Part shown: positions 22,562 through 44,922 of the stretch, piece by piece
How the letters are laid out: every line of letters starts with the position of its first letter
Numbering within the stretch: the stretch's first letter is position 1
From: Erwinia pyrifoliae DSM 12163
Lineage (GTDB): Bacteria; Pseudomonadota; Gammaproteobacteria; Enterobacterales; Enterobacteriaceae
Direction of reading: 5' to 3'
Length of the DNA: 64,000 nucleotides
Assembly (NCBI RefSeq): GCF_000026985.1
Contig: NC_017390.1
Span: 917,363-981,362, forward strand
Notes under the pieces: model-generated
Told to the model about the DNA's origin: nothing
What the model saw: only the letters and a program-made list of their open reading frames with translations
Database searches by the model: none
Position numbers and translations under genes: made by a program

Positions 22562-23789
<1,228 letters not shown>

Positions 23790-34152: not shown

Positions 34153-34780
34153 GTTCACTGCCGCACAGGCAGCTTAGAAAATCACCGCTTCCCCCCTACC
34201 TTTGCAGTCTCGGTTCACTGCCGCACAGGCAGCTTAGAAATGCCGGACAGCGTGATGATTTTCAATAAACCAGTTCACTGCCGCACAGGCAGCTTAGAAA
34301 GTTCCAGGCTTGCCGCACATCACCAGCCCACCGTTCACTGCCGCACAGGCAGCTTAGAAAATTGACGAAATTTTGACAACGCTGAAACTGCCGTTCACTG
34401 CCGCACAGGCAGCTTAGAAACCCGTTGTGGCTCAAAGCCGGAGATCAGCACCGTTCACTGCCGCACAGGCAGCTTAGAAATCTACGGCGAGTAGAAAATA
34501 ACTATCAAGCAGGTTCACTGCCGCACAGGCAGCTTAGAAAGGAAACGAACAGCGTTTTCCACTGCATTAATGGTTCACTGCCGCACAGGCAGCTTAGAAA
34601 CATTCGTCTTGCCATCTCTTCGACCGGCAGCAGTTCACTGCCGTACAGGCAGCTTAGAAACGGGATAGCGCCGGGAAAATCAGTTGCAACGCGTTCACTG
34701 CCGTACAGGCAGCCTAGAAACTGAAACCGTCAGGTTCCGGGTACTTTTTCTTGTTCACTGCCGCACTGCCAGCTTAGAAA
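34153..34780 (+). CRISPR. CRISPR array 3, type I-F, 11 repeats and 10 spacers
   Basis: The 28-base repeats start GTTCACTGCCG, carry CACAGGCAGC and end TTAGAAA. They recur exactly every 60 bases from 34153 with 32-base spacers. The repeats at 34633 and 34693 read GTACAG, and the latter has CCTAG. The repeat at 34753 is changed to CACTGCC. A further degenerate copy starts near 34814 (GTTCCCTGCCGTACC), so decay is at the right and the leader is at the left. The array is upstream of cas1 in the same orientation. Confidence 0.98.
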
Positions 34781-34841: not shown

Positions 34842-35204
34842 TAGCGTTAAACACGCTCCACACCGGCTCTTTTAAAATAAATTCCCTCATCCATAGCTAT
34901 ATCAATTATTGCAGATCAGAAAAAAATATCCACTGGCGCTATCATCAGATCAGGCGTACGATGAACGGGTTGAAATTTTACTGCTGAACAAGCAGCTTAG
35001 AAAATAGCGATATATATTATTGATAGTTAATGATTTTTCACTGCCGTGCAGGCAGTTATAAATATATTTGCAACGGTTCTCGCTGCCTGCGGTTGCGTTA
35101 AAACCGTATTGAAAGATAAGCAAAGAGGTATGTAACTTTCCAGCCAATATCATCATTTCACAGATATCCGGGAAGCAAATAACCGCTTCACAAGGAAGCG
35201 CCAT
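34842..35204. other. Region between array 3 and cas1
   Basis: About 360 bases hold no gene. The left part is unique sequence. The middle contains the degenerate mini-array (34976-35063). The right 140 bases should contain the cas1 promoter, and a ribosome site AAGGAAG lies about 10 bases before the ATG at 35205. Confidence 0.6.
34976..35063 (+). repeat. Degenerate type I-F mini-array (two pseudo-repeats, one pseudo-spacer) upstream of cas1
   Basis: Two repeat-like 28-mers start at 34976 and 35036, exactly 60 bases apart like the true array. They leave a 32-base A/T-rich pseudo-spacer (35004-35035). The first has CTGCTGAACAAGCAG in the hairpin and ends CTTAGAAA, about 5 changes from the array repeat. 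The C-to-T and G-to-A changes in its stem compensate, so the hairpin is intact. The second keeps TTCACTGCCGTGCAGGCAG but has lost the CTTAGAAA end. Such an element could be processed by Cas6f into one crRNA-like RNA. Confidence 0.7.
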
Positions 35205-36182
35205 ATGGAAATGATTAAGCCCTCCGATTTAAAAACCATTCTGCACTCAAAACGTAGCAATATTTATTATCTGCAATACTGCCGGGTGCTGGTGAACGGC
35301 GGCCGGGTGGAATATGTTACTGACGAAGGTAAACAGTCTCTGTACTGGAATATTCCTATCGCCAACACCACTGTGGTGATGCTGGGTACCGGTACATCGG
35401 TAACCCAGGCGGCGATGCGTGAGTTTGCCCGCGCCGGGGTCCTGGTCGGGTTTTGCGGCGGCGGCGGAACTCCGCTGTACGCGGCCAATGAAGTTGAGGT
35501 CGATGTCTCTTGGCTGAATTCACAAAGTGAATACCGCCCCACGGAATATCTTCAGCACTGGGTCAGCTTCTGGTTTGATGAGCAGAAGCGGCTCAGCGCC
35601 GCCATCGCCTTTCAGCATGTGCGCATCAGTCAGATACGCCAGGCATGGCTGGGCAGTAAAATGATGCGTGAGCATAAATTTGCCATCAGCGAGCCTCAGT
35701 TGACCGGGATCCTCGACCGATTCGAGCAAGGTCTGGCGCGCTGTAATAACAATACCGATCTGCTGGCACTTGAAGCGGTAATGACCAAAGCGCTGTATAA
35801 ACTGGCGGCACAGGCGGTAAGCTACGGCGATTTTATCCGTGCCAAACGCGGAGGCGGCATTGATGCGGCAAACCGTTTCCTCGATCATGGTAATTATCTC
35901 GCCTACGGCCTGGCGGCGGTGGCCTGCTGGGTGATTGGCTTACCGCACGGGCTGGCGGTGCTGCATGGTAAAACCCGTCGCGGTGGGCTGGTGTTTGACG
36001 TGGCTGACCTGATCAAGGATGCATTGATTTTGCCTCAGGCTTTTCTTGCCGCGATGGCCGGAGAAGAGGAGCAGGAGTTCCGTCAGCGCTGCCTGACCAG
36101 CCTGCAAAATGCGGAAGCGTTGGATACCATGATTGCCGCGCTGGAAGCCACCGCCCGACAGTACAGCCAGGTGGGAAAATGA
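35205..36182 (+). CDS. cas1: CRISPR integrase Cas1f
   Basis: The type I-F Cas1 integrase has 325 residues. It begins MEMIKPSDLKTILHSKRSNIYYLQYCRV, the family start. It contains ALEAVMTKALYK, with the catalytic Glu, and GLPHGLAVLHGKTRRGGLVFDVADLIKDA, with the catalytic His and Asp. Its stop overlaps the cas2-3 start by 4 bases. It lies downstream of array 3 and the degenerate mini-array. Confidence 0.97.
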   Translation: MEMIKPSDLKTILHSKRSNIYYLQYCRVLVNGGRVEYVTDEGKQSLYWNIPIANTTVVMLGTGTSVTQAAMREFARAGVLVGFCGGGGTPLYAANEVEVDVSWLNSQSEYRPTEYLQHWVSFWFDEQKRLSAAIAFQHVRISQIRQAWLGSKMMREHKFAISEPQLTGILDRFEQGLARCNNNTDLLALEAVMTKALYKLAAQAVSYGDFIRAKRGGGIDAANRFLDHGNYLAYGLAAVACWVIGLPHGLAVLHGKTRRGGLVFDVADLIKDALILPQAFLAAMAGEEEQEFRQRCLTSLQNAEALDTMIAALEATARQYSQVGK

Positions 36183-39100
36183 ATATTTTATTGATCGCCC
36201 AGTGTAACAAACGTGCGCTGGAAGACAGCCGCCGTATTCTCGATCAGTTTGCCGAACGTAAAGGCGACCGCAGCTGGCAAACGGCAATCACTCAGCAAGG
36301 ATTGCTGACGCTGCGTAAGCTGCTGCGCAAAACCGCGCGGCGTAATACCGCCGTGGCCTGCCACTGGATTAAAAGCAACGGTCAGAGCGAACTGCTGTGG
36401 ATTGTTGGCAACCTGCGCCGTTTTAACGCGCAAGGCGCGGTGCCTACGCATACCACCTCGCGTGATGTGCTGAAAAGCGCTGATGAAAACAGTTGGCACA
36501 GCGTGGAGGCTGTCAGCCTGCTGGCCGCTATTGCCGGGCTGTTTCATGATTTTGGTAAGGCCAACAGTCTGTTTCAGCAGATGCTTGTCGGGAAAAAAGG
36601 GGTAAAAAGCTTTCAGCCTTACCGCCATGAGTGGGTTTCGCTGCGGCTGTTCTGTGCCTGGGTCGCGGGGCGTGACGATCGGGCGTGGATCGCCGCCCTT
36701 AGTGACATTGGGCCACAGGATGAGCAGGCGATGCTGGCCGGGTTGCAGAAAGACGGTTTGATGCCAACCAAAAATCCTTTTGACCCCTTACCGCCGGTAG
36801 CTCGCGTGGTGGCGTGGCTGATCCTCTCACATCACCGTATGCCGGTTTACCCGAAAAAGGATGATTTACCGCCGCAGATGACCTGGCTGCCACCGGAACT
36901 GGAACACTGCGATGGCTGGCTGACCAGGGAGCTGGATGCGCTGTGGAATGCCCTCAATCATCATCATGACTGGAAACCCGCCGAACTTCAGGCGCAGTGG
37001 CAGTTCCCGCAGGGAACGCCGATGCAAAGCGGCCGCTGGTGCGGCAAAGCGCGTAAGATGGCACAGCGCCTGCTGGCCCAGCCGGCATGGCTGGCACAAA
37101 TCGATATCAATCAGCGCTTCAGCTGCCATATGGCGCGGCTGGCATTAATGCTGGCCGATCACGTTTACTCTCGGCAAGCGGCCACGCCGGGCTGGCAGGA
37201 CGCGGACTGTCTGCCGTATGCCAATACCGACAACGGCAGGCCGAAGCAGCGGCTGGATGAGCATAACATTGGCGTGGCGCAAAATGCCCTGCTGCTGGCG
37301 CGCAGCCTGCCGCATTTACGCAAAACCCTGCCGGCGATCGCCCGCCATAAGGGATTTAAAAAACGCAGTGAGAACTCAACATTCCGCTGGCAGGATAACG
37401 CCTGGCAGGCGACCTGCAATCTGCGCGATCGTGCCTTTCAACAGGGTTTTTTCGGCATCAATATGGCCTCGACCGGCTGCGGTAAAACCTTTGCCAATGC
37501 GCGCATTATGTATGCACTGTCCGATGAGCAAAAAGGGTGTCGCTTTGCGGTGGCGCTGGGCTTGCGAACCCTGACGCTGCAAACCGGCGATGCGCTGCGT
37601 GAAAAGCTGAAGCTGGAACAGGACGATCTGGCGGTACTGGTGGGTTCACAGGCGGTGACGCAGCTGCATCAGCAGGCTAAAGATAGCCCCACGCCGCCTG
37701 TCCCCGGTAGCGAGTCGGCCGCACCGCTGCCGGAGGAAAACCAGTACGTCAGCTACGAAGGCAGCCTTGATGACGGGCGCTTAAGCCGCTGGCTAAAGGA
37801 TAGCCCCCGGATAAATAAACTGCTGAGCGCCCCGGTACTGGTTACTACTATCGATCATTTAATCGGCGCGACCGAAGGGCTGCGCGGTGGCAAGCAGATA
37901 GCGCCAATGCTGAGACTGCTAACCTCGGATCTGGTGCTCGACGAACCGGATGATTTTGATATCGAGGATCAGCACGCGCTGTGCCGACTGGTGAACTGGG
38001 CGGGTATGCTGGGTTCGCGCGTACTGCTCTCCTCGGCAACCCTGCCGCCCGCGCTGGTGCTGGCGCTGTATAACGCTTACCGCAGCGGGCGCGAGGTTTT
38101 CCAGCACGCCTGTGGCCTGCCCGTCGACGGCAATATTTGCTGCGCATGGTTTGATGAAAATGCGGTGCTTACAGAGGATCTGCGCCTGCCGCAAGAGTTT
38201 ATGCAACAGCATCAAGAGTTTGTTGCGAGGCGGGTCAGCTGGCTGGCTAAGCAGCCGGTACTGAGGCGTGGCTGGATAGCGCCGGTGGCTCCCCCCGCCC
38301 GTGATGATGGGACAATTTACCGCCATATGGCGCAGGTGATTTTGCAGTCGATGATGACGCTGCATCATGCTCACCATCAGCGCCATCCGGTTTCGGGCAA
38401 GACGATATCGACAGGCGTGATCCGTCTCGCCAATATCAATCCGCTGGTGGCGGTGGCTCAGCAGCTGCTGGCGACCGGGGCGGCGGAAGATACCCATATC
38501 CACTACTGTGTTTATCATAGCCAGCACCCGCTGGCGATGCGTTCGCATTTTGAACAGCGGCTGGATGCCACCTTAACCCGCCATCAGCCCGAGGCGATCT
38601 GGCAGGTGGCGGAGATCGCCGAAGCGCTGGAACAACATCCGCAGCAGCATCATCTGTTTGTGGTGTTGGCGACCTCGGTAGCGGAAGTGGGCCGCGATCA
38701 CGACTACGACTGGGCGATTGCCGAACCCAGCTCGATGCGCTCGCTGATCCAGCTGGCGGGCAGGGTACAGCGCCATCGTCAGCAGGAAGCACAGAGCGAA
38801 AATATCCATATGTTGCAGCAGAATATTCGCTCATTAAAGGCGCGGGATAGCCAAAAGCCTGCTTACTGCCAACCGGGGTTTGAGCACAAAGACTATATGC
38901 TGGCGAGCCACGATTTACAGCAGATTCTGGACAAAGAACAGTATCAGACAATCAGCGCCATCCCACGTATTCAGCAGCGCCGGGAGGCGAAGAAACGCCA
39001 ACCCTTTACTAATCTGGCCGATCTGGAACACCAACGGCTGATGGTGGAATTGCAGGGAAAGCAGGACAAGAAGGACAAGCAGGTAAAGCAGGATAAGCCG

Positions 39101-39490
39101 CTGCCATACTGCGCCGCGTTGTGGTGGCGCGAACAGGCCAGCTGGTGCGGTGAAATGCAGCGGCATAAGCCGTTTCGTCAGTCGCAGCCTGAGGATATGC
39201 ACTTTATGCTGATAGCTGAGGAGGGTGATCAGCCAGAAATATGGCAGCCTGACGATGGCCCGTCCGGGCGCAAACAGAGCATGATGACATATCCCGACCT
39301 GACGTTCGCCGCCGGGATCAGCGCCTGGATTGCCCCGGACTATCAGCAGGTCTGGCAGCAGCTGGCCGACAGCCTGACGATGGAGCTGGAGGAGGTCAGT
39401 CTGCGCTTTGGTGAAATTATGCTGCGGAGCGGCCGCGACGACGAAATATGGCATTTTCATCCGCTATTAGGCGTGTTTAAGGCGCAGTAG
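36179..39490 (+). CDS. cas3f: Cas2-Cas3 fusion nuclease-helicase, type I-F
   Basis: This 1103-residue fusion has an N-terminal Cas2 domain (about 1-90, MNILLIAQCNKRALEDSRR), an HD nuclease and an SF2 helicase. HD residues are His123-Asp124 in LFHDFGK, with ILSHHR downstream. Walker A is ASTGCGKT at 430-437, the DExD motif is DEPD at 588-591, motif III is SSATLPP, and motif VI is QLAGRVQRHR. It acts both in spacer acquisition with Cas1f and in target degradation. In known I-F loci csy1 follows directly. Here a 1.1 kb insert with brnTA lies between them. Confidence 0.97.
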   Translation: MNILLIAQCNKRALEDSRRILDQFAERKGDRSWQTAITQQGLLTLRKLLRKTARRNTAVACHWIKSNGQSELLWIVGNLRRFNAQGAVPTHTTSRDVLKSADENSWHSVEAVSLLAAIAGLFHDFGKANSLFQQMLVGKKGVKSFQPYRHEWVSLRLFCAWVAGRDDRAWIAALSDIGPQDEQAMLAGLQKDGLMPTKNPFDPLPPVARVVAWLILSHHRMPVYPKKDDLPPQMTWLPPELEHCDGWLTRELDALWNALNHHHDWKPAELQAQWQFPQGTPMQSGRWCGKARKMAQRLLAQPAWLAQIDINQRFSCHMARLALMLADHVYSRQAATPGWQDADCLPYANTDNGRPKQRLDEHNIGVAQNALLLARSLPHLRKTLPAIARHKGFKKRSENSTFRWQDNAWQATCNLRDRAFQQGFFGINMASTGCGKTFANARIMYALSDEQKGCRFAVALGLRTLTLQTGDALREKLKLEQDDLAVLVGSQAVTQLHQQAKDSPTPPVPGSESAAPLPEENQYVSYEGSLDDGRLSRWLKDSPRINKLLSAPVLVTTIDHLIGATEGLRGGKQIAPMLRLLTSDLVLDEPDDFDIEDQHALCRLVNWAGMLGSRVLLSSATLPPALVLALYNAYRSGREVFQHACGLPVDGNICCAWFDENAVLTEDLRLPQEFMQQHQEFVARRVSWLAKQPVLRRGWIAPVAPPARDDGTIYRHMAQVILQSMMTLHHAHHQRHPVSGKTISTGVIRLANINPLVAVAQQLLATGAAEDTHIHYCVYHSQHPLAMRSHFEQRLDATLTRHQPEAIWQVAEIAEALEQHPQQHHLFVVLATSVAEVGRDHDYDWAIAEPSSMRSLIQLAGRVQRHRQQEAQSENIHMLQQNIRSLKARDSQKPAYCQPGFEHKDYMLASHDLQQILDKEQYQTISAIPRIQQRREAKKRQPFTNLADLEHQRLMVELQGKQDKKDKQVKQDKPLPYCAALWWREQASWCGEMQRHKPFRQSQPEDMHFMLIAEEGDQPEIWQPDDGPSGRKQSMMTYPDLTFAAGISAWIAPDYQQVWQQLADSLTMELEEVSLRFGEIMLRSGRDDEIWHFHPLLGVFKAQ

Positions 39491-39530
39491 ATCGCCAGCC
39501 TTGCTCTACGCGCTACCGGTCACAGAGACT

Positions 39531-39564
39531 TTGACTTTATCTTTTTTGTAGGTACATTAATGTA
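39531..39564 (+). promoter_or_regulatory. brnTA promoter with overlapping palindromic operator
   Basis: TTGACT (39531-39536) and TACATT (39553-39558) are separated by 16 bases. The -10 lies within the perfect palindrome TACATTAATGTA (39553-39564), which runs into the brnT start codon. This is a good candidate for the operator bound by the BrnA antitoxin. The promoter starts 40 bases after the cas2-3 stop, so brnTA has its own transcription. Confidence 0.6.
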
Positions 39565-39842
39565 TGGATATCTGCTACGATCCTGACAAGGATGTGAAAA
39601 ACAGACGTAAGCACGGCTATTCGCTTGCCGACAGCGCCTTGCTGGACTGGGATGAGATGGTCGTATATGAAGATAATCGGCAGCCTTATGATGAGATCCG
39701 GTTGATTGGTTTAACCTATGGCCTTGCCCGGCTGGGTAACAGAATTTTTTCCGTCTGTTTTACCGAGCATGAAGAGGTTTACCGGATAATCAGTTTGCGC
39801 CTTGCCACCAGGAAGGAGATTCAGCGTTATGCCGAAACTTAA
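39564..39842 (+). CDS. brnT: BrnT family toxin
   Basis: This 92-residue RelE-fold ribonuclease toxin has the BrnT pattern: an N-terminal strand (MDICYDPDKDVKNRRKHG) with the RKHG motif, followed by SLADSALLDWDEMVV, a GLARLGNRIFSVCFTE central sheet and the terminal ISLRLATRKEIQRY. It overlaps brnA by 14 bases. The toxin-first order is typical of BrnTA. It sits inside the I-F cas locus, between cas2-3 and csy1. Confidence 0.9.
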   Translation: MDICYDPDKDVKNRRKHGYSLADSALLDWDEMVVYEDNRQPYDEIRLIGLTYGLARLGNRIFSVCFTEHEEVYRIISLRLATRKEIQRYAET

Positions 39843-40125
39843 GCCGGGAACCGTCTTCCCCAGCGCAGAAGAAGACGCAAAAATTTATGCCGCCGTGGCG
39901 GATGATGAAGACAGCATGCTGCTGGAAGATCCGCAGCTGAAACTGACGCCGTTGAAAAAGCGCGGTCGTCCGCAAAAAGCACAGCCGAAGATTGCGGTAA
40001 GCGTGCGCTATACGCCAGAGGTGATCAGCGCGTTTAAAGCATCAGGCGCGGGCTGGCAAACGCGGATGGATGTGGCGCTACAGGACTGGTTAAAGACCCA
40101 TCGGCCAACAGAAATAAAACTTTGA
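39829..40125 (+). CDS. brnA: BrnA family antitoxin
   Basis: This 98-residue antitoxin starts at ATG 39829 (MPKLKPGTVFPSAEEDAKIY), overlapping brnT. The N-terminal acidic part would bind BrnT. The C-terminal part is a ribbon-helix-helix-like DNA-binding domain (KIAVSVRYTPEVISAFKASG then WQTRMDVALQDWLKTH), as in BrnA. It should neutralise BrnT and repress the promoter at 39531-39564. An upstream in-frame ATG at 39802 lies within brnT and lacks a better ribosome site. Confidence 0.88.
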   Translation: MPKLKPGTVFPSAEEDAKIYAAVADDEDSMLLEDPQLKLTPLKKRGRPQKAQPKIAVSVRYTPEVISAFKASGAGWQTRMDVALQDWLKTHRPTEIKL

Positions 40126-40173
40126 AGAAAAGAGAACGGCATCCGTAAGGGTGCCGTTTTTACTATAAAAATC

Positions 40174-40256
40174 AATAATTTCTGCCTGTACGGCAGTGGA
40201 AAAAGCAAAAATAGATATTTTAAATTTATTTCTAAGCTGCTTGTTCAGCAGTGCTG
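40174..40256 (-). repeat. Second degenerate type I-F mini-array, inverted, after brnA
   Basis: On the minus strand a pseudo-repeat spans 40256-40229 and shares 23 identical bases (CTGCTGAACAAGC... to TTAGAAA) with the one at 34976-35003. A second one begins at 40201 with CCACTGCCGTACAGGCAG. The two are 55 bases apart, giving a 27-base A/T-rich pseudo-spacer. It points towards brnA and cas2-3, so it is inverted relative to the left copy and the two bracket cas1-cas2-3-brnTA. The hairpin stem CTGCT/AGCAG is intact. Confidence 0.65.
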
Positions 40257-40583
40257 GCAAGAGTACAGCATAACTTTTCCCGCTATCAAGATTTTTAACC
40301 ATGTCGGGCCAGAATCTCTGGCTCCCATTCCCCGAGCGTAAAAATTCAGCAAATCTGGTGGCACTGGGTCTCAGTCTGAGGTATATTTGTGGGATAGTTA
40401 TTTTATATTTAGGGGTTAAGTTTTGGGTGCGCTGCTTAGAAATATACTTTGGGTCGTTATAGGTTTGGCTATCATAATACTGGCGTGTAATTCGCGAGTT
40501 GATTCTCTCAGTATTAACGTTAACTTAAATATCATAAAGTTATAGCGATTTTGGAGTTTAATCCGCACATAAAAGGAGACCAT
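40257..40583. other. A/T-rich region upstream of csy1
   Basis: There is no gene of ordinary size. It contains a third repeat-like fragment (GCTGCTTAGAAA, 40431-40442), a possible 40-codon hydrophobic ORF (40423-40545) and the palindrome TTAACGTTAA (40514-40523). It also has the ribosome site AAAGGAG (40572-40578) for csy1. It should hold the promoter of csy1-csy2-csy3-cas6f. Confidence 0.6.
40423..40545 (+). CDS. Candidate 40-residue hydrophobic peptide upstream of csy1
   Basis: A frame starting with TTG, 7 bases after AGGGG, encodes MGALLRNILWVVIGLAIIIL followed by ACNSRVDSLSINVNLNIIKL. This is a basic N-terminus, one membrane helix and a possible lipobox-like LAC. A TAA two codons upstream fixes the start. 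Codon 6 is a rare AGA that comes from a CTTAGAAA repeat-like fragment, and codon 8 is a rare ATA. The stop is 38 bases before csy1. No family is recognised, and it may be a chance ORF in A/T-rich DNA. Confidence 0.3.
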   Translation: MGALLRNILWVVIGLAIIILACNSRVDSLSINVNLNIIKL

Positions 40584-41933
40584 ATGCTGCGAGAGACCTT
40601 AGCGTCTTTTATCACCAGCTATATTGCCGCCCGGAAAACGGCAAAGCTGGAAGCTTTCGATAAAGAGAGCGCGAAAAAACTGGCCGCGTTAGCGTCAGAG
40701 GATCAAATCAGCGTACTGCGCCAGCAGCTTCAGCAGCAGCGTGCCGAGCTGGAGCAAAAGTACCAGCCGCAGGCCTGGCTTAGCGATGCCGCCAGCCGCG
40801 CCGGGCAGATCAACCTGGTCACCCACGCGGCAAAATTTACCCATAGCGATGCCCGCGGCAGCAGCATATTTGCCAGCAGCAGTGTCCAGCATGAAATGTA
40901 TCTCTCCACCGCAGCCCTGCAAAAACCGGCGCTTGATGTCGTTGGAAACGCGGCAATTCTTGACGTTGCCAAACTGCTGCAAACTGAGGTGGAAGGGAAC
41001 TCATTAATTGCCAGCCTGCAACGCGGCGACTACTCCGCGCTGGAGTCGCTGACCGATAACCCGGAACTGTGCGCCAGCTGGGTCAATGGATTTAAGCAGG
41101 TGCTGGTTGACCGCCAGCCGGCCAGCCATAAGCTGGCCAAACAGATCTACTTTCCCATTGCTGACGGGCAGTATCATCTGCTCAGCCCGCTGTTCTCTTC
41201 CGCGCTGGCTCATGCCCTGAATCAACGTATTATCAGCGCCAAATTTAGTGAAGAAGCCAAAACGGCGCGAGCCGCCCTGAAGGCGAAAAGCTGGCATGAC
41301 GGCCCGGTAGTTGCTTATCCGGGCACCGCCATCACCCAGTTTGGCGGCACCAAGCCGCAGAATATTTCCTATTTAAACAGCGTGCGCGGCGGGAAAGTCT
41401 GGTTATTGCCCTGTGCGCCGCCGGTGTGGCAAACCCAGAGTCAGCCGCCGTCACAGCACAAATCGATCTTTAACTTTTCCAACGACTTTTCCCGCCAGTC
41501 CTGGCCGGTTATTCAGCGACTGAAGCACTTTTTACGCAGGGTCAAAACGCTGGACAGTACGCTGGACATTCGCCAGCAGCGCCTGGCGATGACCGATGAG
41601 ATTATCGATATCCTGTTTAACTATGTGGCCGGGTTGCAAAACCAGACGGATCTGCGTGGCTGGAGCGCACATCCTGACTGCGTACTGAAACGTTCGCAGC
41701 AGCTGTGGCTTGACCCGTGGCGCAGCCAGGATGATGCGGAATTTCAGTTCGAGCGTGAGGGCGGCGACTGGAAAAACGAAGTGGCGCGCGATTTCGGCCA
41801 CTGGCTAAGCCGTCATTTACACAGTGACAAGCTGAATATGGGCGAGACGGAACGCCGCCACTTCTCCACCGCTCCGCTGTTTAAGCAGCGGCTGCGCGAG
41901 CTGGAAAAAGACCTTGCGGAGGATCTGTCATGA
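40584..41933 (+). CDS. csy1: Csy1 (Cas8f), type I-F Cascade large subunit
   Basis: This 449-residue large subunit of the Csy complex recognises the PAM with Csy2. It starts [18 protein letters not shown] after AAAGGAG. It contains [21 protein letters not shown], the hallmark of Csy1. An in-frame ATG at 40551 lies upstream of the ribosome site and is not used. Its stop overlaps the csy2 ATG (ATGA). Confidence 0.96.
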
Positions 41934-42874
41934 GCGCGCTGATTGTCTTACGCCATCTGCGGGTGGAAAACGCCAATGCCATTGCCGGCCTGACCTGGGG
42001 CTTTCCGGCCATCACTCATTTCCTCGGCTTTACCCATGCCTTATCGCGCAAGCTACAGCAGAGCCACAATATCACCCTGTCCGGCTGCGGGGTGATTTGC
42101 CATCAGCAGCAGGTGCATGCCTATACATCAGGGCAAGACTACTGGTTTGCCCTCACCCGTAATCCATTGACCAAAGAAGCAAAAATCGCCGCCTTTAATG
42201 AAGAGGGGCGGATGCATATGACGGTTTCGCTGCTGGTGGAGTGCCACGGCAGCATTGTCGGTGGCGAACAGGGGGCAGCAGAGCTGATGCAAACGCTGGC
42301 TAATCTGTGCCAGCGTTTCCGGCTGGCTGGCGGTACGGTCACCTCGGTCGGCCAGGTGCAGATAAGCGGCTGGCCGCAGGATGACGGTGAGACGCGCAGA
42401 ATAATGCGCCGCCTGCTGCCCGGTTTCGCCTTGCTGGATCGCTCCGCGCTGCTGGCGGCACATCATAGCCAGCCGCCGCAGGCGGAGATGCTGGATACCT
42501 GGCTTGATTTTGCCGCCTTAAAAATGCAGGCGGATGACGGGGCCACGCCAGCGGACGGCAACGTGCAGTGGCAATACCAGCCGAAACCCGGCACCGGCTA
42601 TCTGGTGCCGCTGATGACCGGCTATCGCGCCATCTCGCCGCTCTGTCCGCCGGGAGAGGTGGCCAACAGCCGGGATAACGAAACGCCGTTTCGTTTTACC
42701 GAGGCCGTGTACGGCGTGGGCGAGTGGCGCGGGCTGCACCGCATTGATGATTTACGCCATCTGCTGTGGCGCTATCACCATCAGGACGAGTATTACCTGT
42801 GCCGCAGCGAAGAAACAGCGTGCGACCAGGATTATCCTGACGACGATGAAGATGATGACATCAACTACAACTAA
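41930..42874 (+). CDS. csy2: Csy2 (Cas5f)
   Basis: This 314-residue Cas5-like subunit binds the crRNA 5' handle with Csy1. The start [20 protein letters not shown] and the next segment [20 protein letters not shown] match the family. It ends in an acidic tail ([10 protein letters not shown]). It overlaps csy1 by 4 bases and is followed by csy3 after 23 bases. Confidence 0.96.
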
Positions 42875-42897
42875 TTTGACTTTATAAGGAAATAATC

Positions 42898-43902
42898 ATG
42901 GCTAAATCAGCTATTAAAACCGCCTCCGTGCTGGCCTTCGAGCGCAAGTTATCTAACTCTGATGCCATTATGCTGGCTGGCAAATGGCAGGACGAGCAAA
43001 ACTGGACGCCGATAAAAATTCAGGAGAAAGCGGTGCGCGGCACCATCTCCAACCGCCTGAAAAACGCCATCGCCAGCGATCCGCTAAAACTGGATGCGGA
43101 GATCCAAAAACCGAATCTTCAGAGGGTTGATGTGGCCGCGCTGCCTTATAACTGCGACAGCTTAAAAGTCTGCTTTACCCTGCGGGTGCTGAGCGGCCTT
43201 GCCACACCGGCGGTATGTAACGACAGGGCGTACCAGGCAGCGCTGGCTGCGGTGATTGACGGCTATATTGCCCGGCACGGCTTCAGCACGCTGGCCGCGC
43301 GCTACGCTGAAAACATCGCTAACGGGCGCTTCTTATGGCGCAACCGCCTGGGTGCCGGGCGAATTGCGGTGCAGGTGACCAGCGGCGAAAAATGCTGGCA
43401 GTTTGACAGCTATGACTACAGTCTGCAGGCATTCAGTCAGCCACAGGGAGATTTACTGGAGCTGGCACAGGCGATTGAACAGGGGCTGAGCGGTAACAGC
43501 TTTGCGCTGTTTAACGTTGAGGCCCGGGTGTATCTCGGCAACGGTCAGGAGGTCTTCCCTTCGCAGGAGCTGGTGCTGGATGGCAACAGTAAAAAAAGCA
43601 AGCTTCTCTACCAGATTGACGGCACGGCGGCCATCCACTCGCAGAAAATTGGCAATGCGCTGCGCACCATCGATAGCTGGTATCCGGACGCGGATGAACT
43701 GGATGAAGGGCCGATCTCCGTTGAACCTTATGGCTCGGTGACCAGCCGGGGCATCGCTTACCGTCAGCCGATAAAGAAAATGGATTTTTATAACCTGCTG
43801 GATAACTGGGTGACCAAAGATAAAGAACCGGATACGGAGCAGCAGCACTACGTGATGGCTATTTTGATCCGTGGTGGCGTATTCGGTGAGAAAAGCGAGT
43901 AG
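42898..43902 (+). CDS. csy3: Csy3 (Cas7f), backbone subunit
   Basis: The 334-residue backbone protein coats the crRNA spacer as six copies. It has the family start [20 protein letters not shown] and [13 protein letters not shown]. It also has [18 protein letters not shown] and the C-terminal [14 protein letters not shown] ribosome site (AAGGAAA) precedes the ATG. Confidence 0.96.
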
Positions 43903-43910
43903 GGGGCTTT

Positions 43911-44465
43911 ATGGATCATTATCAGGATATTCGCGTGCGGGTGGATGAGGAGAACGGTGAAGCGGTGCTGCTGGCACAGGTATTTATGCATCTGCATCAG
44001 GTACTGATGCGGGCGGCGAATGGCCGTATCGGTATCAGCTTCCCCAATGTAAAGCGGACGCTGGGCGACCGCATCCGGCTGCACGGCACGCTGGATGATT
44101 TAAGCGCACTACAGCAAAGCGGCTGGAATAAGTGTCTTAGGGATTATATCGCCTGTAGCGATATCGCCCCGGTTCCGAAGGGGGCGGCGTGGCGCACCGT
44201 CCGGCGCGTCCAGGTGAAAAGTAGCGCTGAACGCCTGCGCCGCCGTTCGGTAAATAAAGGCTGGCTAAGCGAACAGGAAGCCGCAGAGCGAATCAGCGTA
44301 CTCAACGAGCAGCGCAGTAATTTGCCGTTTTTGCAGATAAAGAGTGGTTCTAATGGTCAGGCCTGGCGGCTGTTTATTGAACATGGCTCGCTGGTATCTG
44401 CCCCCAGCGATGGCAGCTTTAGTTCCTATGGGTTAAGCGCCGCTGCTACCATCCCCTGGTTTTGA
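43911..44465 (+). CDS. cas6f: crRNA endoribonuclease Cas6f (Csy4)
   Basis: This 184-residue ribonuclease cuts the I-F repeat at the base of its hairpin. The catalytic histidine is His29 in VFMHLHQVL, the same number as in Pseudomonas Csy4. The arginine-rich helix that reads the RNA stem is seen in [15 protein letters not shown]. It ends [11 protein letters not shown], a typical C-terminus. It follows csy3 by 8 bases and ends the operon, just before the leader of array 4. Confidence 0.96.
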
Positions 44466-44594: not shown

Positions 44595-44922
44595 GTTCAC
44601 TGCCGTACAGGCAGCTTAGAAATCGGCGCTGCCGCTGCTCAAACTCGCCGTGCTGTTCACTGCCGTACAGGCAGCTTAGAAAACCATCACTGACAGCGAA
44701 GCCCGGAATAAACCCTTCACTGCCGTACAGGCAGCTTAGAAAAGTCCCGGCACCACCTCAGCGCCCAGCCCTGTGTTCACTGCCGTACAGGCAGCTTAGA
44801 AAAGCTAGAGGGGGTAAATAGCGTGGACTACAGCGTTCACTGCCGTACAGGCAGCTTAGAAAAAGTCGCGAACAGATTTCGGGGGGTTTTTGCAGTTCAC
44901 TGCCGCACAGGCAGCTTATTAA
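44595..44922 (+). CRISPR. CRISPR array 4, type I-F, 6 repeats and 5 spacers
   Basis: The 28-base repeats start GTTCACTGCCG, carry TACAGGCAGC and end TTAGAAA, every 60 bases. The third (44715) starts with C instead of G. The last (44895) has GCACAG and ends CTTATTAA, marking the leader-distal end. The main repeat form is GTACAG, while array 3 is mostly GCACAG. The array reads away from cas6f, in the same direction as the operon. Confidence 0.98.

Follow-up and report, generated by a model that had tools for sequence, protein, structure and literature searches.

The type I-F locus of clustered regularly interspaced short palindromic repeats (CRISPR) and cas genes in Erwinia pyrifoliae DSM 12163 carries, apart from its ordinary arrays, two pairs of degenerate repeats that face inward around cas1, cas2/3 and a toxin-antitoxin gene pair of the brnT and brnA families. 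What might such mini-arrays do? The locus lies in a stretch of 64,000 nucleotides (NC_017390.1, positions 917,363 to 981,362, forward strand), hereafter the window, and all coordinates count from its first letter. An earlier note on this DNA had proposed that the pairs encode CRISPR RNA (crRNA)-like regulatory RNAs, of the CreR or CreA type, or are relics of terminal repeats that once moved the module. We consider it quite probable that each mini-array encodes a single crRNA-like guide, and that a Csy complex carrying this guide acts as a repressor through an adjoining target flanked by a CC protospacer-adjacent motif (PAM).

Mini-arrays and their adjoining targets

Both pairs are present as described earlier, with repeats starting at 34976 and 35036 on the plus strand (left) and at 40256 and 40201 on the minus strand (right). 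The period is 60 bases on the left, in agreement with the earlier note, and 55 on the right. The parts of each mini-array and its self-target are:

34976..35003, plus strand: left (cas1-side) first degenerate repeat, stem CTGCT/AGCAG, handle CTTAGAAA at 34996-35003
35004..35035, plus strand: left spacer, 32 nucleotides, the first 19 of which are the same in the relative G032
35036..35062, plus strand: left second repeat, stem CTGCC/GGCAG intact, handle lost
40229..40256, minus strand: right (csy1-side) first degenerate repeat, stem CTGCT/AGCAG, handle CTTAGAAA at 40236-40229
40202..40228, minus strand: right spacer, 27 nucleotides
40174..40201, minus strand: right second repeat, stem CTGCC/GGCAG intact, handle lost
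34891..34924, plus strand: left self-target, CC PAM at 34891-34892, protospacer at 34893-34924
40380..40413, minus strand: right self-target, CC PAM at 40413-40412, protospacer at 40411-40380

The compensated stem and the exact handle are found in both first repeats, as had been noted, and the two repeats do share sequence, over 24 bases (ACTGCTGAACAAGCAGCTTAGAAA) rather than the 23 originally counted; their hairpin differs from that of the array repeats. With up to two mismatches allowed, the 23-base core of the first repeats has only two copies in its own genome, namely the two mini-arrays. Against the Rfam family CRISPR-DR4 (cut-off 35), the left first repeat scored 36.0 bits, above the cut-off, the right first repeat (30.5 bits) and the left second repeat (25.3 bits) fell below it, and the right second repeat was not listed among the matches. 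The intact parts of each pair, that is, the first hairpin with its handle and the second hairpin, appear to be what one guide RNA would need and no more. Given the shared 24-base repeat end, one mini-array was probably copied from the other and re-aimed.

The spacers were compared with the window on both strands, using a score that skips every sixth position. Type I-F complexes flip out every sixth base of the guide and do not read position 6. Near each spacer lies a target with a CC PAM, a feature absent from the earlier note. The left guide matches its target at positions 1-5, 7-10 and 13-19 (34893-34911), with mismatches at 6, 11 and 12, and the right guide matches at positions 1-5, 7-13 and 15-18 (40411-40394), with mismatches at 6 and 14. 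Spacers themselves aside, the best CC-PAM site for each guide in the 64 kb adjoins its own mini-array (scores 13.5 left and 12.5 right): the left target is just upstream of the left mini-array, and the right target sits between the right mini-array and csy1. None of 5000 dinucleotide shuffles of the neighbouring DNA reached either score, the best shuffled values being 10 (left) and 11 (right). When each target pattern was searched for in the whole 4.07-Mb genome at up to two mismatches, only the target and the spacer were found; these patterns were derived from the observed targets, and the result hence speaks for uniqueness and is not an independent P value. Taken together, both mini-arrays look like working self-targeting guides. 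Their inward orientation can be attributed to where each target lies.

The genes and ordinary arrays of the locus are:

34153..34780, plus strand: CRISPR array 5' of cas1 (basis includes Rfam)
35205..36182, plus strand: cas1 (type I-F)
36179..39490, plus strand: cas2/3 (type I-F)
39564..39842, plus strand: brnT-family toxin gene
39829..40125, plus strand: brnA-family antitoxin gene
40584..44465, plus strand: csy1, csy2, csy3 and csy4 (cas6f), the effector and crRNA-processing genes
44595..44922, plus strand: CRISPR array 3' of csy4 (basis includes Rfam)

Between the right target and csy1 (40431-40443, plus strand), we also noted a handle-like piece, GCTGCTTAGAAAT, that has no hairpin and is partly kept in G032 and Erwinia piriflorinigrans. 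Elsewhere in the window, a second, distant Cas1 match (~22601-23371, plus strand; 25-31% identity, E ~1e-4) suggests another CRISPR-Cas locus.

The csy1-side guide and its relatives

Related loci were collected in three ways. A Cas1 scan of genome contigs supplied the best 80 of 569 loci, a sample thus biased to close relatives; a search of 37 genomes of the genus yielded nine further full-length type I-F Cas1 loci besides that of the own genome; and a search of the order found Cas1f in 63 of 394 genomes, 60 of which were fetched, with G147 and G049 (besides the own genome) left out. The first set comprised 77 loci with cas1, cas2/3 and csy1 in order, after exclusion of eight in which cas3 or csy1 gave no match and of two whose genes overlapped. 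Duplicates were dropped before counting (L106, L108 and L111, equal to L003, L004 and L027; later also L115, L116, L117 and L119).

In the first set, no mini-array was found where the gap between cas2/3 and csy1 was shorter than 120 bases (0 of 35 loci). Where the gap was at least 120 bases, 30 of 42 loci held a mini-array matching its own gap at P 0.005 (the lowest value that 200 shuffles can give); the rearranged locus L017, the 31st with a self-matching mini-array, was left out of the 30. Self-matching mini-arrays were likewise found in 21 of 31 long-gap loci of a second set; two of the 21 (L117 and L119) repeat first-set genomes. The spacers vary between lineages, yet each matches its own target. 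By contrast, none of 502 ordinary array spacers from 31 loci scored at least 8 against its own gap. In a search by handle alone, with no hairpin required, target scores of at least 10 were reached at 51 sites: the stem is complete, with five pairs, at 46 of them, has four pairs at two and at most one pair at three; three further sites scored 6-10 and 37 scored below 6. L120, L152 and L153 have strong targets without a 5-base stem at the fixed loop length.

The pairing of these guides with their targets follows a regular pattern. Removal of similar spacers reduced 51 elements to 41, and targets were picked by the CC and positions 1-5 alone, as a guard against bias. Exactly one such site was present for 35 of the 41 elements, and the other six stayed outside the pairing count. 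Matches were found in 12 of 35 cases at position 6, 163 of 175 at positions 7-11, 8 of 35 at position 12, 134 of 175 at positions 13-17 and 15 of 35 at position 18, and were near chance past position 20. Position 6 differed from positions 7-11 with a Fisher P of 1e-13, a value made optimistic by related genomes in the set, although the shape is clear. Pairing thus lapses at positions 6, 12 and 18, as in Cascade guides, and this one-in-six pattern is sequence-only evidence that the guides may act inside a Cascade-type complex.

Spacer and target also change together. Between the window and G032, positions 4 (A to T) and 11 (A to G) of the right guide are changed in spacer and target alike. In the Photorhabdus loci L006, L007 and L013, position 7 (G, T and C) and position 1 (C, C and T) vary in both, and matched changes separate L139 from L140 at position 2 and L133 from L141 at position 4. 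An unmatched difference occurs as well, a mismatch at position 8 in L006. The comparison of relatives for covariation that the earlier note had suggested was carried out: among the csy1-side elements, seeds change with their targets in close relatives, and the stems of the first repeats differ between lineages by compensating changes.

Over 40 elements, the distance from the handle to the second stem clusters near 19, 24-25, 30-31 and 35. A period of 6 was the strongest of nine tried (Rayleigh P 2e-4; smooth-null P 2e-4), with the caveat that the clusters are broad, the elements are related and the right guide of the window (32) is off any step. The apparent ~6-base steps could reflect the omission of whole Csy3 subunits from the repressing complex.

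Two promoter-like sites lie near the right mini-array and its target:

40358..40387, plus strand: GTGGCA-18-TATATT, the predicted csy1 promoter, with its -10 element and predicted start within the right target
40262..40289, minus strand: TTGATA-16-TGTACT (extended -10), the promoter-like site of the right mini-array

At the end of the brnTA pair (~40133-40162) there is a conserved inverted repeat and a T run, read directly from the sequence and absent from the terminator-scan list, and csy1 therefore probably has its own promoter. Both hexamers of the predicted csy1 promoter are kept in the window, G032 and E. piriflorinigrans (L003), and the 18 bases between them vary; the location of this site under the right target is suggestive only as evidence for csy1 control. 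The promoter-like site of the right mini-array is identical in the three genomes, and its predicted start is at most 1 nucleotide from the first repeat. Since its relatives share the design, its pairing lapses are Cascade-like and ordinary spacers score lower, the csy1-side element fits the known CreR class, with a target at a predicted promoter-like site of csy1. In this respect the earlier proposal of CreR-type regulatory RNAs in a type I-F locus gains from the position of the target and from the many relatives of the same design.

The wider set of loci offered further observations. Toxin-antitoxin genes in the gap between cas2/3 and csy1 vary from BrnT/BrnA in the window to ParE-like (L006 and L072) and AbiEi/AbiEii-like (L107); in L107 the self-target is upstream of the AbiE genes and not beside csy1, and the guide may control the AbiE genes too. 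An open reading frame (ORF) of ~104-120 amino acids is conserved just upstream of csy1 in L130, L132, L133, L136, L138, L143, L146 and L148 (one family of the order, f27); there the mini-array is on the plus strand and the target, where detected, is upstream of this ORF. The one protein tested, from L130, had no Pfam match. A relative that lacks a complete type I-F cas1 retains a 47-residue remnant of the gene (G009:C53:173552-173692, L114), 91% identical, and its 20-kb stretch showed no type I-F mini-array.

The cas1-side guide and rival readings

The cas1-side element looks rare and is the unusual part of this locus, a variant found in two genomes. It was present in two of 87 loci (the window and G032) in the first set, none of 59 in the second, and only two of 37 genomes (the same pair) in a genus-wide pattern search. 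A search for self-targeting mini-arrays in 143 loci (1.82 Mb), in which targets containing repeat motifs were filtered out beforehand, returned 48 matches in the gap between cas2/3 and csy1 and eight elsewhere; six of the eight were judged to be within CRISPR arrays, and the other two were the left elements of the window and G032. In the first set, further rows scoring at least 6 on the cas1 side included L022 (7, P 0.010), L029 (15) and L073 (9, P 0.010). We took L029 and L073 for repeat matches within arrays, and L022 for a canonical-repeat spacer that matches weakly.

What would this guide regulate? G032 retains the left element and the core of its target, CCATAGC-AT-T-AATTATT, within flanks that differ, and the target bases that vary include position 6. 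To the right of the left target, both genomes have the mini-array and then cas1, and the terminator scan of the window found no terminator-like site on the plus strand there. The DNA to the left differs, being the array tail in the window and a Tlde1-domain gene in G032. The regulated unit is thus most simply the mini-array with cas1-cas2/3, and we propose that the left guide is a second feedback guide on this unit. In G032 (L105 1553-2200, plus strand), the Tlde1-domain gene is followed by an ORF of 99 amino acids, both lying between the CRISPR array and the left mini-array.

Several observations weigh against feedback by guides of this kind. Promoter-like sites occur at about the number expected by chance, two in the right region against a shuffle mean of 2.0 and two in the left region against 1.1, and the predicted csy1 promoter ranks only 12th and 10th in the matrix scans of two relatives. 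Promoter scans found no plus-strand promoter overlapping the left target: the top-scoring plus-strand site near cas1 (predicted start at -60) is outside it, and a minus-strand site overlaps it. Among long-gap loci, 12 of 42 in the first set and 10 of 31 in the second did not pass the self-target test; three in the first set (L034, L037 and L062) have repeats without a significant target and eight have no element, and the ten in the second set gave no element. Moreover, only two genomes are known to carry the left element, and a third close relative, E. piriflorinigrans, does not have it. The failure of L062 can be ascribed to an edge effect, since its score reaches 12.5 in a wider search region. 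The cas1-cas3 tree joins E. piriflorinigrans to G032 (support 1.00) and the csy1 tree joins it to the window (0.95), and on account of these groupings loss of the left element in E. piriflorinigrans is likelier than shared gain in the other two. L034 and L037, two Yersinia loci with P 0.085 and 0.876, possibly carry decaying elements.

The minus-strand site that overlaps the left target is:

34905..34932, minus strand: TGGATA-16-AATAAT, weakly promoter-like and directed away from cas1

Because no plus-strand promoter was found under the left target and this weak leftward site is present in both genomes, a serious rival is that the left guide represses a leftward transcript, either an array antisense RNA or a CreTA-like small toxic RNA, and not cas1. 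We regard this as unlikely, though well worth keeping in view. The two hexamers are identical in G032 with different DNA between them, and the right element shares the geometry, in that its target is upstream of the mini-array at a predicted promoter pointing away. However, the site is weak (not one of the 12 best in the matrix scan), there is no shared small ORF leftwards of it, and a leftward transcript would run into the very side that is not conserved, where the window has its array tail and G032 the Tlde1-domain gene with its downstream ORF. It is distinctly improbable that the left element is instead a functionless, decayed tail of the upstream CRISPR array. Array tails do degenerate, and in the window the element is ~200 bases past the last recognisable array repeat; nevertheless, its 24-base repeat end is that of the csy1-side element and not the repeat of the array, it is kept in G032 at ~1.2 kb past the array end, and the first 19 nucleotides of its spacer are conserved there together with the target core. 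Furthermore, only the parts needed for one guide are intact, and the self-match has no counterpart among the 502 ordinary spacers.

The two other roles envisaged in the earlier note fared worse. A pair of the BrnTA family does lie between the two elements, is present in three Erwinia loci that share the csy1-side repeat, and toxin cargo under crRNA-like control has been described (PMC12737573). Yet it is very improbable that the guides are CreA-like antitoxins silencing brnT: their best CC-PAM scores near brnT are 3 (left) and 2 (right), against 13.5 and 12.5 at the proposed targets, and with any PAM 5.5 and 4.5, and 27 of the 30 first-set loci with an element gave no brnT match (E up to 1e-4). 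Neither guide has a target in the 5' region of brnT or in the brnTA pair, which neighbours the csy1-side element without being a target of its guide and looks like cargo; control of brnTA was rejected on this ground. The idea that the repeat pairs are remnants of the terminal repeats of a mobile module draws on their inverted orientation and shared 24 bases around cas1, cas2/3 and brnTA. We find it hardly credible and reject it, as what the pairs share is a hairpin of the Cas6f type with its handle, the two spacers differ and each fits its adjoining DNA, and the csy1-side element is widespread in relatives without a cas1-side partner. We saw no transposase in the genes that separate the pairs, though no search was made for target-site duplications.

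A model with two feedback guides

For the preferred reading, in which each mini-array encodes a self-targeting guide, we envisage the following sequence of events. Once the mini-array is transcribed, Cas6f would cut after the first hairpin to leave a guide with CUUAGAAA as its 5' handle and the second hairpin as its 3' end. Loaded with this guide, a Csy complex would then pair with 17-19 bases of the CC-PAM target that lies upstream of the same mini-array. That much pairing would give stable binding, the unpaired PAM-distal part would leave Cas2/3 unrecruited, and the bound complex would stand in the way of transcription. On the right, the guide would cover the csy1 promoter and keep csy1-4 in check, an autorepression of the CreR type. 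On the left, it would likewise block the DNA that precedes its own mini-array and cas1, so that the presumed cas1-cas2/3 unit has its own feedback guide. Both repressions would be relieved by ordinary crRNAs, anti-CRISPRs or loss of Cascade. A more specific version holds that the effector operon has one CreR guide and cas1 with cas2/3 another, separate one, the second being a re-aimed copy of the first, that the two arms are fed back independently, and that the ~6-base length steps stand for dropped Csy3 subunits; this we put forward tentatively, at somewhat less than an even chance.

Parts of this design have precedents. In 2023, Shmakov et al. reportedly described standalone-repeat mini-arrays that match cas8 promoters and toxin-antitoxin cargo, one type I-F1 case being backed by experiment. 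The csy1-side element appears to be of this kind, csy1 being the cas8 of type I-F. CreR, as far as covered by passages of a review (PMC12737573), likewise has degenerate repeats, a partial spacer match beside a PAM, a cas operon promoter as its target and no toxin target; the present locus differs in having two guides with different spacers, one of them on the cas1 side, and a second guide for the adaptation side is not described in those passages. CreA of CreTA and CrePA, according to the same review, is also a crRNA-like RNA with a partial target match and Cascade-based repression, but silences a toxin promoter, whereas neither guide here has a brnT target. The Racr RNA anti-CRISPRs of phages, in the part of the source consulted (PMC10651486), share a type I-F repeat-like RNA processed by Cas6f; they are solitary phage repeats, whereas here repeat pairs with a self-matching spacer occupy a chromosomal cas locus. 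Two scans for phage copies of the guides returned 28 viral-contig stretches (26 + 2) with the guide 5' ends, none of them with a CTGC-type stem; two of the 28 have at least four chance pairs before the handle, in unrelated sequence. Literature searches, which covered open-licence papers, found no paper on a cas1-side guide.

The csy1-side guide is a well-supported member, with many new relatives, of a known class of RNA regulators. If the cas1-side guide controls spacer uptake, separate throttling of adaptation and interference becomes testable, as does the way in which a new regulatory guide evolves through the copying of a repeat and the re-aiming of its spacer.

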